NCBI GenBank assembly: GCA_902826095.1
Contig: CADEDN010000020.1
Location: 1-52,444, forward strand
DNA from: an uncultured Alphaproteobacteria bacterium
GTDB lineage: Bacteria; Pseudomonadota; Alphaproteobacteria; Caulobacterales; Parvularculaceae
Direction of reading: 5' to 3'
DNA: 52,444 nucleotides
Positions 5,285 to 49,053 of the stretch are shown here, piece by piece. Numbering within the stretch: position 1 is the stretch's first letter; the number at the start of each line of letters is the position of its first letter. The translations under genes and the position numbers were made by a program. The notes under the pieces are model-generated. The model worked only from the letters and a program-made list of their open reading frames with translations. It ran no database searches and was not told the origin of the DNA.

Positions 5285-5478
5285 CCCCGGCTGTCACGGA
5301 ACCTGAGAGATTTCGCGGGCGCGCACGAACGGCCGGCTTACTCCTTCGGTGGAATGGGCTCTCGCCCCTTCGCTTTCCAGCCCTTCTTACGCGCGCGGTC
5401 CTTTTGCCTGAGAGTTTCCGGGGCGGTTGCTCCTTCGGCGCCGCCGGCTCACCGCCGACGGTCTCTCCCGCATCACGC
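5285..5478 (-). promoter_or_regulatory. Tandem glycine riboswitch
   Basis: Read on the minus strand, aptamer 1 (about 5474-5391) contains GCGGGAGAGACC, GCGCCGAAGGAGCAA and GGAAACTCTCAGGCAAAAGG. Aptamer 2 (about 5378-5291) contains GGGGCGAGAGCCC, CACCGAAGGAGTAAG and GAAATCTCTCAGGTTCCGTG. These are the conserved P1/P3 elements of the glycine aptamer, present twice with a short linker. In this family glycine binding normally turns on gcv expression. Only about 35 nt separate aptamer 2 from the gcvT start. Confidence 0.95.
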
Positions 5479-5552
5479 GTAACGACGTTTCCGCCGTCGC
5501 GCGCGACAATAGGCGGCGCGCGGCCCTAGTCAATGATTCGACCCGAGGATTC

Positions 5553-25719: not shown

Positions 25720-26916
25720 TCACAAGACCGCCTCCCCTGTCCGCGCCCGGAATTCGGCGATGAAATCGCCAAGCCGACCCGCTGCGATCGCCGCGCGCAG
25801 GTCCGCCATCAGTTGCTGATAATAATGCAGATTGTGCCAGGTCAGGAGCATCGCCCCGAGATACTCCCCTGCCTTGAAAAGGTGGTGGAGATAGGCTTTC
25901 GAATAGTCGCGGCTCGCCGGGCACGCGCTCGCGGGGTCGAGCGGGGTTTCGTCGTCAGCAAATCGCGCATTGGTGATGGTGACCGGGCCGTCCGGCGTCC
26001 ACGCCTGACCATGACGGCCGGCCCGTGTCGGCAGCACGCAGTCGAACATGTCCAGCCCACGCGCGACGGCGCCGACAATGTCCGCCGGCTTGCCGACGCC
26101 CATCAAATAGCGCGGCTTGCCTTCATCCATGTGCGGCGCTGTAAATTCGAGCACGCGAAACATTTCCTCGCGCCCTTCCCCGACCGCAAGTCCGCCGATC
26201 GAGTAGCCCGGAAAGCCGATCTCCCTGAGCCGTTCGAGGCTTTCGCGGCGAAGGTCTTCGTAATTCGCGCCCTGCACGATGCCGAACAGCGCTTGCCCCG
26301 GCTTCGATTTCTCGGCGAAGGCGCGCTTCGAGCGCTCCGCCCAGCGCAAGGAGAGCCGCATCGACTCCACGGCCTTCTCATGCGCGATCGGCATCGCCGG
26401 GCATTCGTCAAGCTGCATCTGGATGTCGGCGCCCAAAAGGCATTGGATCTCGATCGAACGCTCGGGCGTCAGCATGTGCCTTGAGCCGTCGATATGCGAG
26501 GCGAACGACACGCCCTCCTCCGTCAGCTTGCGGAGCGATGAGAGCGACATCACTTGATAGCCGCCCGAGTCGGTGAGGATCGGGCGCGGCCAGTTCATGA
26601 ATTGATGAAGCCCGCCAAGCGCCGCGACGCGTTCCGCGCCGGGGCGCAGCATCAGATGATAGGTGTTGCCGAGAATGATGTCGGCCCCGGTCGCGGCGAC
26701 GTCCTCGGGGAACATCGCCTTCACCGTTCCCGCCGTGCCGACCGGCATGAAGGCGGGCGTGCGGACCTCGCCGCGCGAGGTTGAGATCACGCCGGTTCTC
26801 GCGGCGCCGTCTGTCGCGTGGAGGGTGAAGGAGAAGGCAATGGGCAATGGGCAATGGGTAGTGGGCGTGGCGCCCGCCTCCTTATCGCTGTCAGCTATTT
26901 CATTTCGACGCGTCAC
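25720..26916 (-). CDS. tgt: tRNA-guanine(34) transglycosylase (start uncertain)
   Basis: Tgt exchanges guanine at the wobble position of certain tRNAs for the queuosine precursor preQ1. The core is intact: [34 protein letters not shown]-type [26 protein letters not shown] and [12 protein letters not shown]. One zinc-site Cys is in [15 protein letters not shown]. The family-like protein begins at [10 protein letters not shown] (residue 28 here). The codons before it (26836-26916) are read from a foldback repeat, and the normal start is gone. Candidate starts are the GTG at 26916 (398 residues) and a TTG at 26847 (375 residues, near the usual length), neither with a good Shine-Dalgarno sequence. 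It follows queA, the next queuosine gene. Confidence 0.93.

Positions 26917-26957: not shown

Positions 26958-26965
<8 letters not shown>
26836..26965. mobile_element. Foldback (MITE-like) element between queA and tgt
   Basis: Arms of 23 bp at 26836-26858 and 26943-26965 are inverted copies with one mismatch. Each is made of the unit GGGCAAT repeated three times. The 84-bp centre contains GGTCACCGG/CGGTGACC-type shorter repeats and no gene. The left arm ends exactly where conserved Tgt sequence begins, and the right arm contains the TAG stop of queA. Size and structure suggest a small non-autonomous mobile element; no target-site duplication is evident. Confidence 0.7.
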
Positions 26966-28028
<1,063 letters not shown>

Positions 28029-28416
28029 CGACGGCGTCTGTAGCCGCTTGGCCTGAAAGTCGCCAGCAAGCGCCTCAATCGGCGTCCGGCGCGCACCGCG
28101 CGGGCGCCGCCGTCGCGGTCCTTCAATCGATTCGCCGGGCCTTTTGGCCGGCCGGCCTCGCGGATTTTCAGCCTCCCATGCGGGATCCAGCGGCGAAAGG
28201 CCGCCTCTTCGGGGAGGGATCAGCCCACCCTTTTCCGCCGAGCGCGCCTGATCTGGACGGCGCCCATGCGCCGCCGCGGCCCTCCCGCCTTGCGCCAACT
28301 CCTCGCTCGCCCGCATCGCCATTCCAACTCCTCCATCCGCATACGGATTTCATCTCCGCCCCCCCCGGCGGCGGATCGCCTGCAGGGAACTTGAGGACTA
28401 ATTTAGGTGCGCACGC
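28029..28416. other. Non-coding stretch upstream of queA
   Basis: The 1,122-bp gap between parC and queA begins here. This first part is GC-rich (about 70 percent by eye), has no ORF with recognisable protein and no clear repeat. A frame continuous with queA runs to 28322 but reads as Arg/Gly/Pro-rich filler. The queA promoter should lie in this part or in the AT-rich segment beyond 28480, but I could not fix it. Confidence 0.5.
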
Positions 28417-28420
28417 GGGG

Positions 28421-28480
28421 TGTGGGATAAGGTGGGGGATAACATGGGGGATAAGTAGGAGGATAAACTGGGGGATAACT
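28421..28480. repeat. Five tandem 12-bp repeats, TGGGGGATAANN
   Basis: Exact 12-bp units start at 28421, 28433, 28445, 28457 and 28469: TGTGGGATAAGG, TGGGGGATAACA, TGGGGGATAAGT, AGGAGGATAAAC, TGGGGGATAACT. GATAA is invariant. With GGGG at 28417-28420 the G-runs and loops of 3, 7 and 7 nt (28417-28450) fit the standard G-quadruplex pattern. On the other strand the unit reads TTATCCCCCA, which resembles a degenerate DnaA box (TTATCCACA). A T-run and an AT-rich stretch follow at 28480-28520, unlike the surrounding DNA. Confidence 0.85.
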
Positions 28481-28639
28481 TTTTTTTATGGCGTTGAAAC
28501 AACCCCTTATATAATTAAAGAAATTCCGCTTCGTCCGGAATTCGCGCTAGCGGAATCGGCCAAGAATTCCACCGCGATCAGGTGCTCCGTCTACGGACCG
28601 TCAACCGGTTGGGGTCCGGACCATCGGCGCGTCACGGCG

Positions 28640-28859
28640 CCAATCCCCCCTGCCTCCCTTTCCAAGGCAGGGGAAAGAGAGAGGCCCGCTCGGATTCCCT
28701 CCCCTTTGGAAAGGGGAGGGTCAGAGTGGGGATTGGTTTTGATGCGGATGAATGGCGCCACGCCAATGCAGGATTTCTTGAGACAAGAGCGCGGCCAGCC
28801 TCACGGGGTCCCGGATCAGCGCAGCAGCGCTTCGCGCCGCAGCGCATCCGGGATGACAG
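28640..28859. repeat. Composite intergenic repeat, copy 1
   Basis: About 220 bp in three parts. The first is a long hairpin bounded by CCAATCCCCC (28640) and GGGGATTGG (ends 28737). The second is a middle segment, TTTTGATGCGGATGAATG through CAAGAGCGC. The third is the palindrome TCCCGGATCAGCGC...GCGCATCCGGGATGACAG. Copy 2 follows after 39 bp in the same order and orientation, nearly identical. No plausible gene lies within. Confidence 0.85.
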
Positions 28860-28898
28860 GGTGAGGTGACGGGGAGGAGAGACCAGGCTGAAACAGCT

Positions 28899-29121
28899 CC
28901 AATCCCTCCCCTACCCCTCCCTTTTCAAGGGAGGGGAAAGAGAGAGGTCCGCTCGGATTCCCTCCCCTTGAAAAGGGGAGGGTCAGGGAGGGGATTGGTT
29001 TTGATGCGGATGAATGACGCGACGCCAATGCAGGATTTCGTGAGACAAGAGCGCCGCTAGCCTCACGGGGTCCCGGATCAGCGCCGCAGCGTTACACGCT
29101 GCAGCGCATCCGGGATGACAG
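28899..29121. repeat. Composite intergenic repeat, copy 2
   Basis: The same three parts as copy 1 in the same orientation, about 90 percent identical by eye; the differences cluster in the hairpin arms and the loop of the last palindrome (GTTACACG here). Compensating changes in the first hairpin (AAGGGAGGGG with CCCTCCCCTT) suggest that the fold is what is kept. It ends 30 bp after the parC stop codon. Confidence 0.85.
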
Positions 29122-29150
29122 CGAGGGGAAAGAATGTGGGCCGACCGGCG

Positions 29151-42754: not shown

Positions 42755-43399
42755 ATGACAACCTTCCTCGGCCTTCGCGATACCGAAAAAACGGCCCTCT
42801 TCATCGACGGCGCCAATTTATATAAAGCCGCAAGAGCGCTCGGATTTGACATGGATTACAAAAGCTTGCTCGCCAAATCTAGAGCATCGTGCAAGCTGAT
42901 CAGAGCCTATTACTACACCGCCATGCAGGAGGACAAGGAACAGGATTACTCCCCGCTCCGACCGCTCGTCGACTGGCTCGACTATAATGGCTACACCATG
43001 GTGACGAAGACCGCGCGCGAATTTACCGACGCGATGGGGAAAAAACGCTTCAAGGGATCGATCGACATCGAACTTGCGGTCGACCTCATGAGCCTTGCGC
43101 CCAAGCTCGACCATATCGTGCTGTTCACCGGCAATGGCGATTTCAAGCGGGTGATCGAAGCTGTGCAGGCGCAGGCCGTCCGCGTCACCGTCGTCTCGAC
43201 GATCAAGTCGCAGCCGCCGATGGTGTCCGACGACCTTCGCCGTCAGGCTGACCGGTTCTTCGACCTCGCCGACCTTGAAAAGGAAATCGGCCGGACCGGC
43301 GGTCCGCCGAGAAAGCCGCGACCGACGCCCGCAACCACCGACGATGTCGAAGATGAATTTGACGGCGAATTTGAAGACGAATTTGAAGATGTGGATTGA
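42755..43399 (+). CDS. NYN-domain (LabA/DUF88-type) putative ribonuclease
   Basis: The product is 214 residues. Residues about 12-175 form a PIN-like NYN nuclease domain with the acidic residues in ALFIDGANLYKA, KGSIDIELAVDLM and LFTGNGDFKRVIE. Most relatives are thought to cut RNA, but function is not shown for this one. The last ~35 residues are a tail of Asp/Glu with the short repeat DEFDGEFEDEFEDVD, encoded by a tandem repeat of GAATTTGA. The uracil-DNA glycosylase gene follows within 20 bp. Confidence 0.88.
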   Translation: MTTFLGLRDTEKTALFIDGANLYKAARALGFDMDYKSLLAKSRASCKLIRAYYYTAMQEDKEQDYSPLRPLVDWLDYNGYTMVTKTAREFTDAMGKKRFKGSIDIELAVDLMSLAPKLDHIVLFTGNGDFKRVIEAVQAQAVRVTVVSTIKSQPPMVSDDLRRQADRFFDLADLEKEIGRTGGPPRKPRPTPATTDDVEDEFDGEFEDEFEDVD

Positions 43400-48729: not shown

Positions 48730-49053
48730 GTGCGCGAACTGGCCGCTATTGGCGCTTGCCTCGCCGTCTGCCTGCTTGCCGCCCCGGCGCCGGCGGGCGC
48801 GGTCGGGGAAGATTGCTCGCTCAAGGGCTTCGTCCTTCGCGGCAAGGTCGAGGTCGTCGAAAGTTTCCCCGACATCAAGGTTCAAGTCGTCACCAGCTTT
48901 CCGGATCTCAAGGTGAAGTCTGTCGACAGCTTTCCCGACGATTGCGGCGAATGGCAGTTCGTCGAGAGCTTCCCCGATTTCAAAATCCAGTTCGTGGACA
49001 GCTTCCCTGACCTCAAAGTTCAGTTGGTCGAGAGTTTTCCGGGCGTTCCCTGA
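48730..49053 (+). CDS. Secreted 7(1) septoil-knot domain protein
   Basis: The product is 107 residues with a signal peptide (cleavage near APAGA, about residue 24). The mature part is six repeats with an 11-residue period around SFPD: VVESFPDIKVQ, VVTSFPDLKVK, SVDSFPDDCGEWQ, FVESFPDFKIQ, FVDSFPDLKVQ, LVESFPGVP. Two cysteines (EDCSLKG and DDCGEW) could form a disulfide. This pattern is that of the 7(1) septoil-knot family, small beta proteins whose backbone forms a seven-crossing knot; I name it from memory of the SFPD pattern. Function is unknown. AGGAGG lies 8 nt before the GTG at 48730; a TTG at 48727 is the alternative. Confidence 0.82.
   Translation: MRELAAIGACLAVCLLAAPAPAGAVGEDCSLKGFVLRGKVEVVESFPDIKVQVVTSFPDLKVKSVDSFPDDCGEWQFVESFPDFKIQFVDSFPDLKVQLVESFPGVP

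Follow-up and report, generated by a model that had tools for sequence, protein, structure and literature searches.

The question raised by this locus is what kind of element is formed by five 12-bp units that stand in a row upstream of queA in the window, by which we mean the whole stretch of 52,444 nucleotides of Parvularculaceae DNA that was analysed. The first-pass annotation described five units with an invariant GATAA beside a T-run and AT-rich DNA, and this description holds: the units occupy 28421-28480, a T8 run at 28480-28487 adjoins them and AT-rich DNA lies beyond. GATAA occurs 39 times across the window (23 times on the plus strand and 16 times on the minus strand); the 12-bp series is unique to 28421-28480. 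That annotation missed that the functional strand is the other one, on which the array reads as five TTATCC boxes at 12-bp spacing, that the unit at 28421 is set apart as a promoter-type proximal box, and that the array belongs to a family with dispersed copies. The case for a promoter here is strong, and from sequence comparison the array is probably a multi-box promoter of GafY type that belongs to a GTA regulon and drives queA-tgt, with GafY as its deduced binder. The parts of the locus are as follows.

28419..28430, minus strand: proximal box TTATCCCACACC, i.e. the unit described earlier at 28421 plus GG
28431-28442, 28443-28454, 28455-28466 and 28467-28478, minus strand: four distal boxes at 12-bp spacing (TTATCCCCCA three times, TTATCCTCCT once)
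28400..28405, minus strand: -10-like TAAATT, beginning 25 nt from the start of the proximal box
28480..28487, minus strand: A8 tract (T8 on the plus strand), adjoining the distal box
28497..28509, plus strand: IHF-like site AAACAACCCCTTA, with one mismatch to the IHF consensus WATCAANNNNTTR
28523..28556, minus strand: hairpin ATTCCGC..GCGGAAT, then a T-rich stretch (fold -13.7 kcal/mol, z -0.62)
28479..28614, minus strand: flank resembling six other array copies of the same assembly (81-83% identity over 79-137 bp)
26958..28322, minus strand: frame from a leader ATG at 28322 into queA, 454 aa with no stop, with a ribosome-binding-like GGAGGAG ahead
26958..28028, minus strand: queA from its likely authentic start at 28028, which codon usage favours

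The stretch 28400-28430 is an exact match to the pattern of box plus -10, in which the proximal box appears to take the place of the -35 element, and the promoter is directed leftward at queA. The 454-aa frame matches Queuosine_synth (PF02547, E 4.9e-121), and the gene after queA, at 25720-26916, is one that we take to be tgt. The earlier suggestion of a regulator of queA stands insofar as the array lies at a promoter aimed at that gene; an effect on queA-tgt is putative. The hairpin is possibly a terminator that shields the promoter from the upstream gene; it is weak alone and not better than shuffled sequences, and the flank in which it lies recurs at other array copies. Rfam gave no match at the window array (nine sources searched). 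Elsewhere in the window, Rfam places paired, adjacent glycine-riboswitch aptamers at 5289-5480 on the minus strand. GC-rich intergenic repeats fill 28630-29130, between the array and a gene read as parC, and recur beside another array copy (L026). Further tandem repeats lie at 48955-49034 (33 bp, 2.4 copies) and 43349-43389 (12 bp, 3.4 copies).

A dispersed family of box promoters

A search of this genome and its relatives for 12-bp arrays, as had been suggested in the first-pass annotation, found arrays of this kind at 16 places in the assembly that contains the window (G000, 3.79 Mb in 58 contigs); three of these (on C37, C50 and C54) are cut by contig ends, and two may be halves of one. The double-box pattern (at most two mismatches) was present in five of eight relatives of the same genus and in none of 32 relatives outside it. 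A scan of a public genome collection returned 30 stretches, 26 of them from records titled Parvularculaceae and one each from an Alphaproteobacteria, a Rhodobacteraceae, a Caulobacter and a Niyogibacteria MAG. The match in the MAG titled Rhodobacteraceae shows the same architecture as the Parvularculaceae arrays; that in the Caulobacter MAG (L142) has TACACT at +25 in an unclear gene context, and the Niyogibacteria match (L136) looks like chance.

The architecture was read from 47 arrays in six genomes of the genus (16 in G000, 15 in G008, 11 in G004, three in G003 and one each in G001 and G005), a set that is a lower bound, as G001 has at least four more (on contig C170, by gmk and rpsA, and at a holin-like gene). 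Boxes are spaced by 12 bp in 108 of 114 intervals, by 11 bp in three and by 24 bp in three. There are one to five distal boxes per array, mostly TTATCCCCC[ATG], and in part of the genus two to six boxes stand in tandem. Among the 45 arrays with a complete proximal box, 41 have TTATCCNACACC or TTATCCCACCCC there. Of the 45 arrays with sufficient sequence, 40 have a TANNNT beginning at +25 from the start of that box and four have it at +26, the last one having TATAAC. At the level of sequence, this fixed distance is the mark of a -10 of sigma70 type, the proximal box standing in for the -35. An A-tract of five or more is found in 17 of 45 arrays.

An IHF-like site is found at one upstream place, in either orientation, with at most two mismatches in 36 of 45 arrays where about 1.3 are expected, on offsets that were picked after inspection of the data and with scoring on the consensus alone. 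Mismatches number zero in 10 arrays, one in 12 and two in 14 (against about 0, 0.13 and 1.1 in shuffled sequences), three to five in a further eight arrays and six in one. In single-box promoters the site is absent from its usual place (present in 0 of 14 in G002 and in 1 of 15 in G013). Because of this, and because the offsets are post hoc, our confidence in the combined reading was lowered by a very small step, leaving it probable.

An exact search of 61 genomes for the promoter form TTATCCNACNCC-N13-TANNNT found 20 matches in G008, 15 each in G000, G002 and G013, 10 in G004 and zero to three in each of the others, and a reversed control pattern had no match in any of the 61. G013 belongs to another genus, and the promoters of G002 and G013 are single-box. 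Given 16 places in one assembly, presence in related genomes and an empty reversed control, the array is not a chance occurrence. The sequence beside the array agrees at 96-99.6% identity among six G000 copies; some of the family has thus spread recently in this genome, and those copies are not independent evidence. A duplicated promoter cassette was also seen in G002: among L280, L284, L285, L288, L290 and L291, several are near-identical over the 45 nt that precede the single box (TGGGAGCCCA..GGCAACCT..GGGGAAAGAGGTCGAAG), again lacking an IHF-like site where it usually lies.

GafY and the genes downstream

Most genomes of the family encode a second, short Bac_DnaA_C protein, to which we give the name GafY on the basis of its domain and promoter. 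A profile built from 12 of these proteins matches domain IV of E. coli DnaA (1j1v, E 3.3e-15). Matches of DnaA itself to Bac_DnaA_C are weaker in this family than in sister families. Box plus TANNNT lies upstream of gafY in 11 of 12 readable cases (among 13 loci, a part of all gafY matches), at +25 in ten (G001, G002, G004, G005, G006, G007, G010, G011, G012 and G013) and at +26 in G032, while the upstream region in G028 has TAATCC only; in G000 and G008 the region is cut by a contig end. In G000, GafY is encoded only in part, where contig C31 ends. DUF6456 (GafZ) was found in none of the 19 family genomes searched, with a positive Caulobacter control and with GTA genes in most of them.

The box varies between genomes in a manner that partly follows the protein. 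In G011, of another genus, the boxes at gafY, the holin-like gene and queA are TTTTCGAACACC, TTATCGAACGCC and TTATCGAACACC, all TTATCGAACRCC-like and each with TANNNT at +25, and this dialect was not found elsewhere in about 1.3 million letters searched, mostly of other genomes. The GafY recognition helix reads GREPSTVSHA in G011, against GRDRTTVSHA in G001, G004 and G005. G006 has a further helix, RNKSTVTHA, and carries TTATCC at gafY but ATATCGAACGCT at the holin-like gene, which keeps the dialect rule from being clean.

The promoter class precedes genes for GTA structure, lysis and tail fibres, and in several genomes it stands at gafY as well. Terminase and portal operons follow box promoters at L013 (Terminase_6N with GTA_TIM in Pfam), L104 (Phage_portal) and L110 (assigned by resemblance only), and in G013 the capsid and connector genes lie 451 nt downstream of L267 (Phage_capsid, E 1.9e-92). 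DUF2793 proteins, named as GTA tail fibre in the part of PMC10883770 available to us, are encoded downstream of boxes at L264 in G013 and L290 in G002. A membrane gene that matches phrog_1544 (unknown function), and for which “holin-like” is an interpretive name, was found in 16 genomes, 11 of which show a box and TANNNT at +25 or +26 ahead of it (G000-G007, G009, G011 and G013, with box variants in G006, G007, G009 and G011); its upstream region has no box pattern in G010, G012, G015 and G016, and in G018 the pattern is degenerate. For most of the remaining targets no connection with GTA is known, and many of these promoters are placed between convergent genes. Their positions recur between species, at gmk in G001, G004 and G008, at rpsA in G001 and G008, at serS in G000 and G004, and at metK in G000 and G008 (gene names read from translations). 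GTA presence alone fails as an explanation for the distribution of arrays, as GTA_TIM is widespread (36 of 41 genomes, including all nine of the genus). The GTA cluster of G000 is internally deleted: at L013 (contig C4), 362 nt past the array, the N-terminal part of terminase runs into a GTA_TIM/Phage-tail_3 protein. The regulon may for this reason be partly relict.

The window copy itself precedes queA, which is not a GTA gene. Among 13 relatives with readable queA upstreams, box and -10 were found only in G011, directly upstream and in the dialect of that genome, and no box was found in the other 12, including G001, G002, G004, G005, G006 and G007 of the same genus; the reading covered 1,000 nt upstream, plus the G004 and G011 loci, and nine further relatives lie outside it, namely eight that the search motif missed and G013, where queA is fragmentary. 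No queA was found in G003 and G008. Membership of queA is patchy, with two occurrences in two genera, and queA-tgt (tRNA queuosine) may be a GTA-linked function. Variable copy number without conservation had been put forward earlier as the mark of a chance microsatellite. Box number does vary, and the queA box recurs in one of 13 relatives, but the promoter class itself is strongly conserved.

Most likely, as judged from these sequences, the multi-box promoters make up a Parvularculaceae GTA regulon, and their box is a candidate GafY motif. Recurrence of the motif at gafY, capsid, tail-fibre, holin-like and terminase promoters, together with a co-varying dialect, makes both the motif and membership in the regulon testable. 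On the minus strand, the proposed order is IHF-like site, A-tract, five boxes for a DnaA-domain-IV-like activator of the GafY family, and -10. At a promoter without a usable -35, for which the proximal box would substitute, the activator bound to that box would bring in sigma70 RNA polymerase, in this genus perhaps with the aid of bending by IHF. Additional boxes would increase occupancy or cooperativity, and more of them would then mean stronger activation; transcription would run leftward into queA-tgt, which would be induced together with the GTA. This suggests a DnaA-type DNA-binding domain that has turned into a promoter activator and reads tandem DnaA-like boxes.

Known systems and rival explanations

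DnaA boxes of oriC and of datA-type sinks have a TTATCC core and a domain-IV-type reader. Unlike those, the boxes described here all point one way, keep a constant distance to a -10 and are spread over 10-20 promoters. Pho-box-like tandem operators are direct repeats about one helical turn apart that replace the -35; the boxes here differ from them in sequence, in their 12-bp spacing and in the DnaA-IV-type reader that is proposed.

The closest described likeness is with Caulobacter crescentus, where, in the available sections of PMC11150451, GafY binds 20 regions, 18 of them in common with IHF. That paper and PMC9632790 present GafY as a homologue of DnaA domain IV that has 18 sites besides its own promoter and the cluster promoter and works at degenerate -35 elements. 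As in that system, promoters here are dispersed (about 20 there) and include those of the GTA cluster and of the activator's own gene (gafYZ), and the induced loci there include a tail-fibre homologue (both papers). The mapped Caulobacter element, an ACTATG region at -123 to -113, lies upstream of IHF, and GafZ targets only the main cluster promoter (PMC11150451, as far as its text was accessible); in contrast, the proposed box here lies between the IHF-like site and the -10, replacing the -35, boxes are in tandem (2-6) in part of the genus, and the GafZ domain was not found in the 19 family genomes. The accessible text of PMC11150451 calls MEME analysis of the ChIP data difficult, that of PMC9632790 states that no motif could be predicted, and no GafY recognition motif was found in the open-access literature searched, including the accessible parts of PMC10688885 and PMC13236601. 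GafA of Rhodobacter capsulatus is alike in its DnaA-like N-terminal HTH, its direct activation of the GTA promoter and its binding to its own promoter, and unlike in being one fused protein with an omega-binding centre; the sections available of PMC6363796 and PMC9638019 report no repeat motif for it.

DnaA itself might bind the boxes, as a transcription factor or a titration sink, with the GTA genes as one group under its control, which we regard as unlikely. TTATCC is common to both kinds of box, and the gafY promoter of G010 contains a perfect TTATCCACA. However, the window units are TTATCCCCCA, TTATCCTCCT and TTATCCCACACC, not the DnaA box TTATCCACA, the proximal core TTATCCNACACC differs and the spacing to the -10 is fixed. 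The host DnaA (L191) has a divergent, less canonical domain IV recognition helix (RDHTTAISSLRRAE), GafY keeps the more DnaA-like one, and in G011 the dialect accompanies a change in the GafY helix, in a comparison made on GafY alone. Of the DnaA-box likeness noted in the first-pass annotation, what survives is that the likely binder, GafY, is a relative of DnaA domain IV. Its titration array does not, as the box is not the DnaA box and sits at GTA genes; titration as a side effect is conceivable. Nor does an origin-like or loading array, since the arrays occur at many places and almost every one keeps a constant distance to a -10. On this dispersion and spacing, oriC or a DnaA sink was rejected as the main reading, and 16 arrays in the assembly do not fit a single origin locus.

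A different, unrecognised activator, with the gafY promoter and GTA genes among its targets, is likewise improbable as the binder. It gains from the indirect nature of the link between GafY and box, and from the Caulobacter GafY element, which in the available sections of PMC11150451 is unlike TTATCC and far upstream of the -35. Against it, GafY is reported to bind its own promoter, which agrees with a box at gafY, the DnaA-IV fold suits a TTATCC-like site and the G011 dialect co-varies. We give very little credence to the array being the terminus of a repeat of transposable or MITE-like kind whose promoter features are incidental: G000 copies do share flanks at 81-99.6% identity and several contigs end at arrays, but other copies share boxes and -10 alone, positions recur between species (the holin-like gene, the GTA cluster, gmk, rpsA, serS and metK) and single-box versions exist in G002 and G013. 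The G-quadruplex of the first-pass annotation was well seen as a pattern, 28417-28450 fitting G3N1-7 by eye (GGGG, GGG, GGGGG and GGGGG, with loops of 3, 7 and 7), but it is not conserved, being present in 18 of 47 arrays and one of 20 two-box arrays. A G-quadruplex element or a chance microsatellite is hardly credible, the latter also in view of dispersed, conserved promoters and zero control matches.

Convergent loci and leader frames

Twenty-five arrays face the 3' end of a convergent neighbour, presumably gmk, metK, rpsA, dnaE and others. At 20 of these 25 loci (18 outright and two ties) the longest open leader is the one that keeps the register of the neighbour's antisense frame, against 23 of 54 array-free 3' flanks (Fisher p 0.0017), and leader stops by frame number 26, 59 and 53 at array loci against 111, 100 and 97 in the controls. 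Where the ribosome-binding match is strongest (six or more bases), all 12 starts are in register, a count that includes two orthologous pairs (10 of 10 when merged) and one start, at L107, beside a weak, truncated gene call; with five or more bases the figure is 16 of 19. For G002, G013 and G005 the in-register frame is longest in only five of 11, with three ties, and stops number 19, 18 and 19.

Stop-free antisense runs through whole genes were considered as a sign of selection and rejected. The rpsA control is also open in G000 and G004, neither of which has GGATAA within 700 nt past rpsA, and yicC is similar; antisense openness inside genes is a by-product of codon usage. It is a speculative and rather unlikely extension of the promoter reading that the GTA switch also fires translated antisense transcription from convergent loci, silencing host genes in a programmed shut-off. 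The leader ORFs would in that case be maintained in phase with the neighbour's antisense frame, and their translation would shield the long antisense transcript from Rho.

A motif like RIRLPREFxxYGLSxQNxCxPH is common to leader ORFs in G004 and G008 (L081, L093, L094, L095, L098 and others), behind AAAGGAGGATGCGCATG and 60-200 nt past the promoter. PHROGs gave no match for the one leader ORF of this group that was tested, and the shared motif possibly marks a small-protein family or a structured leader.
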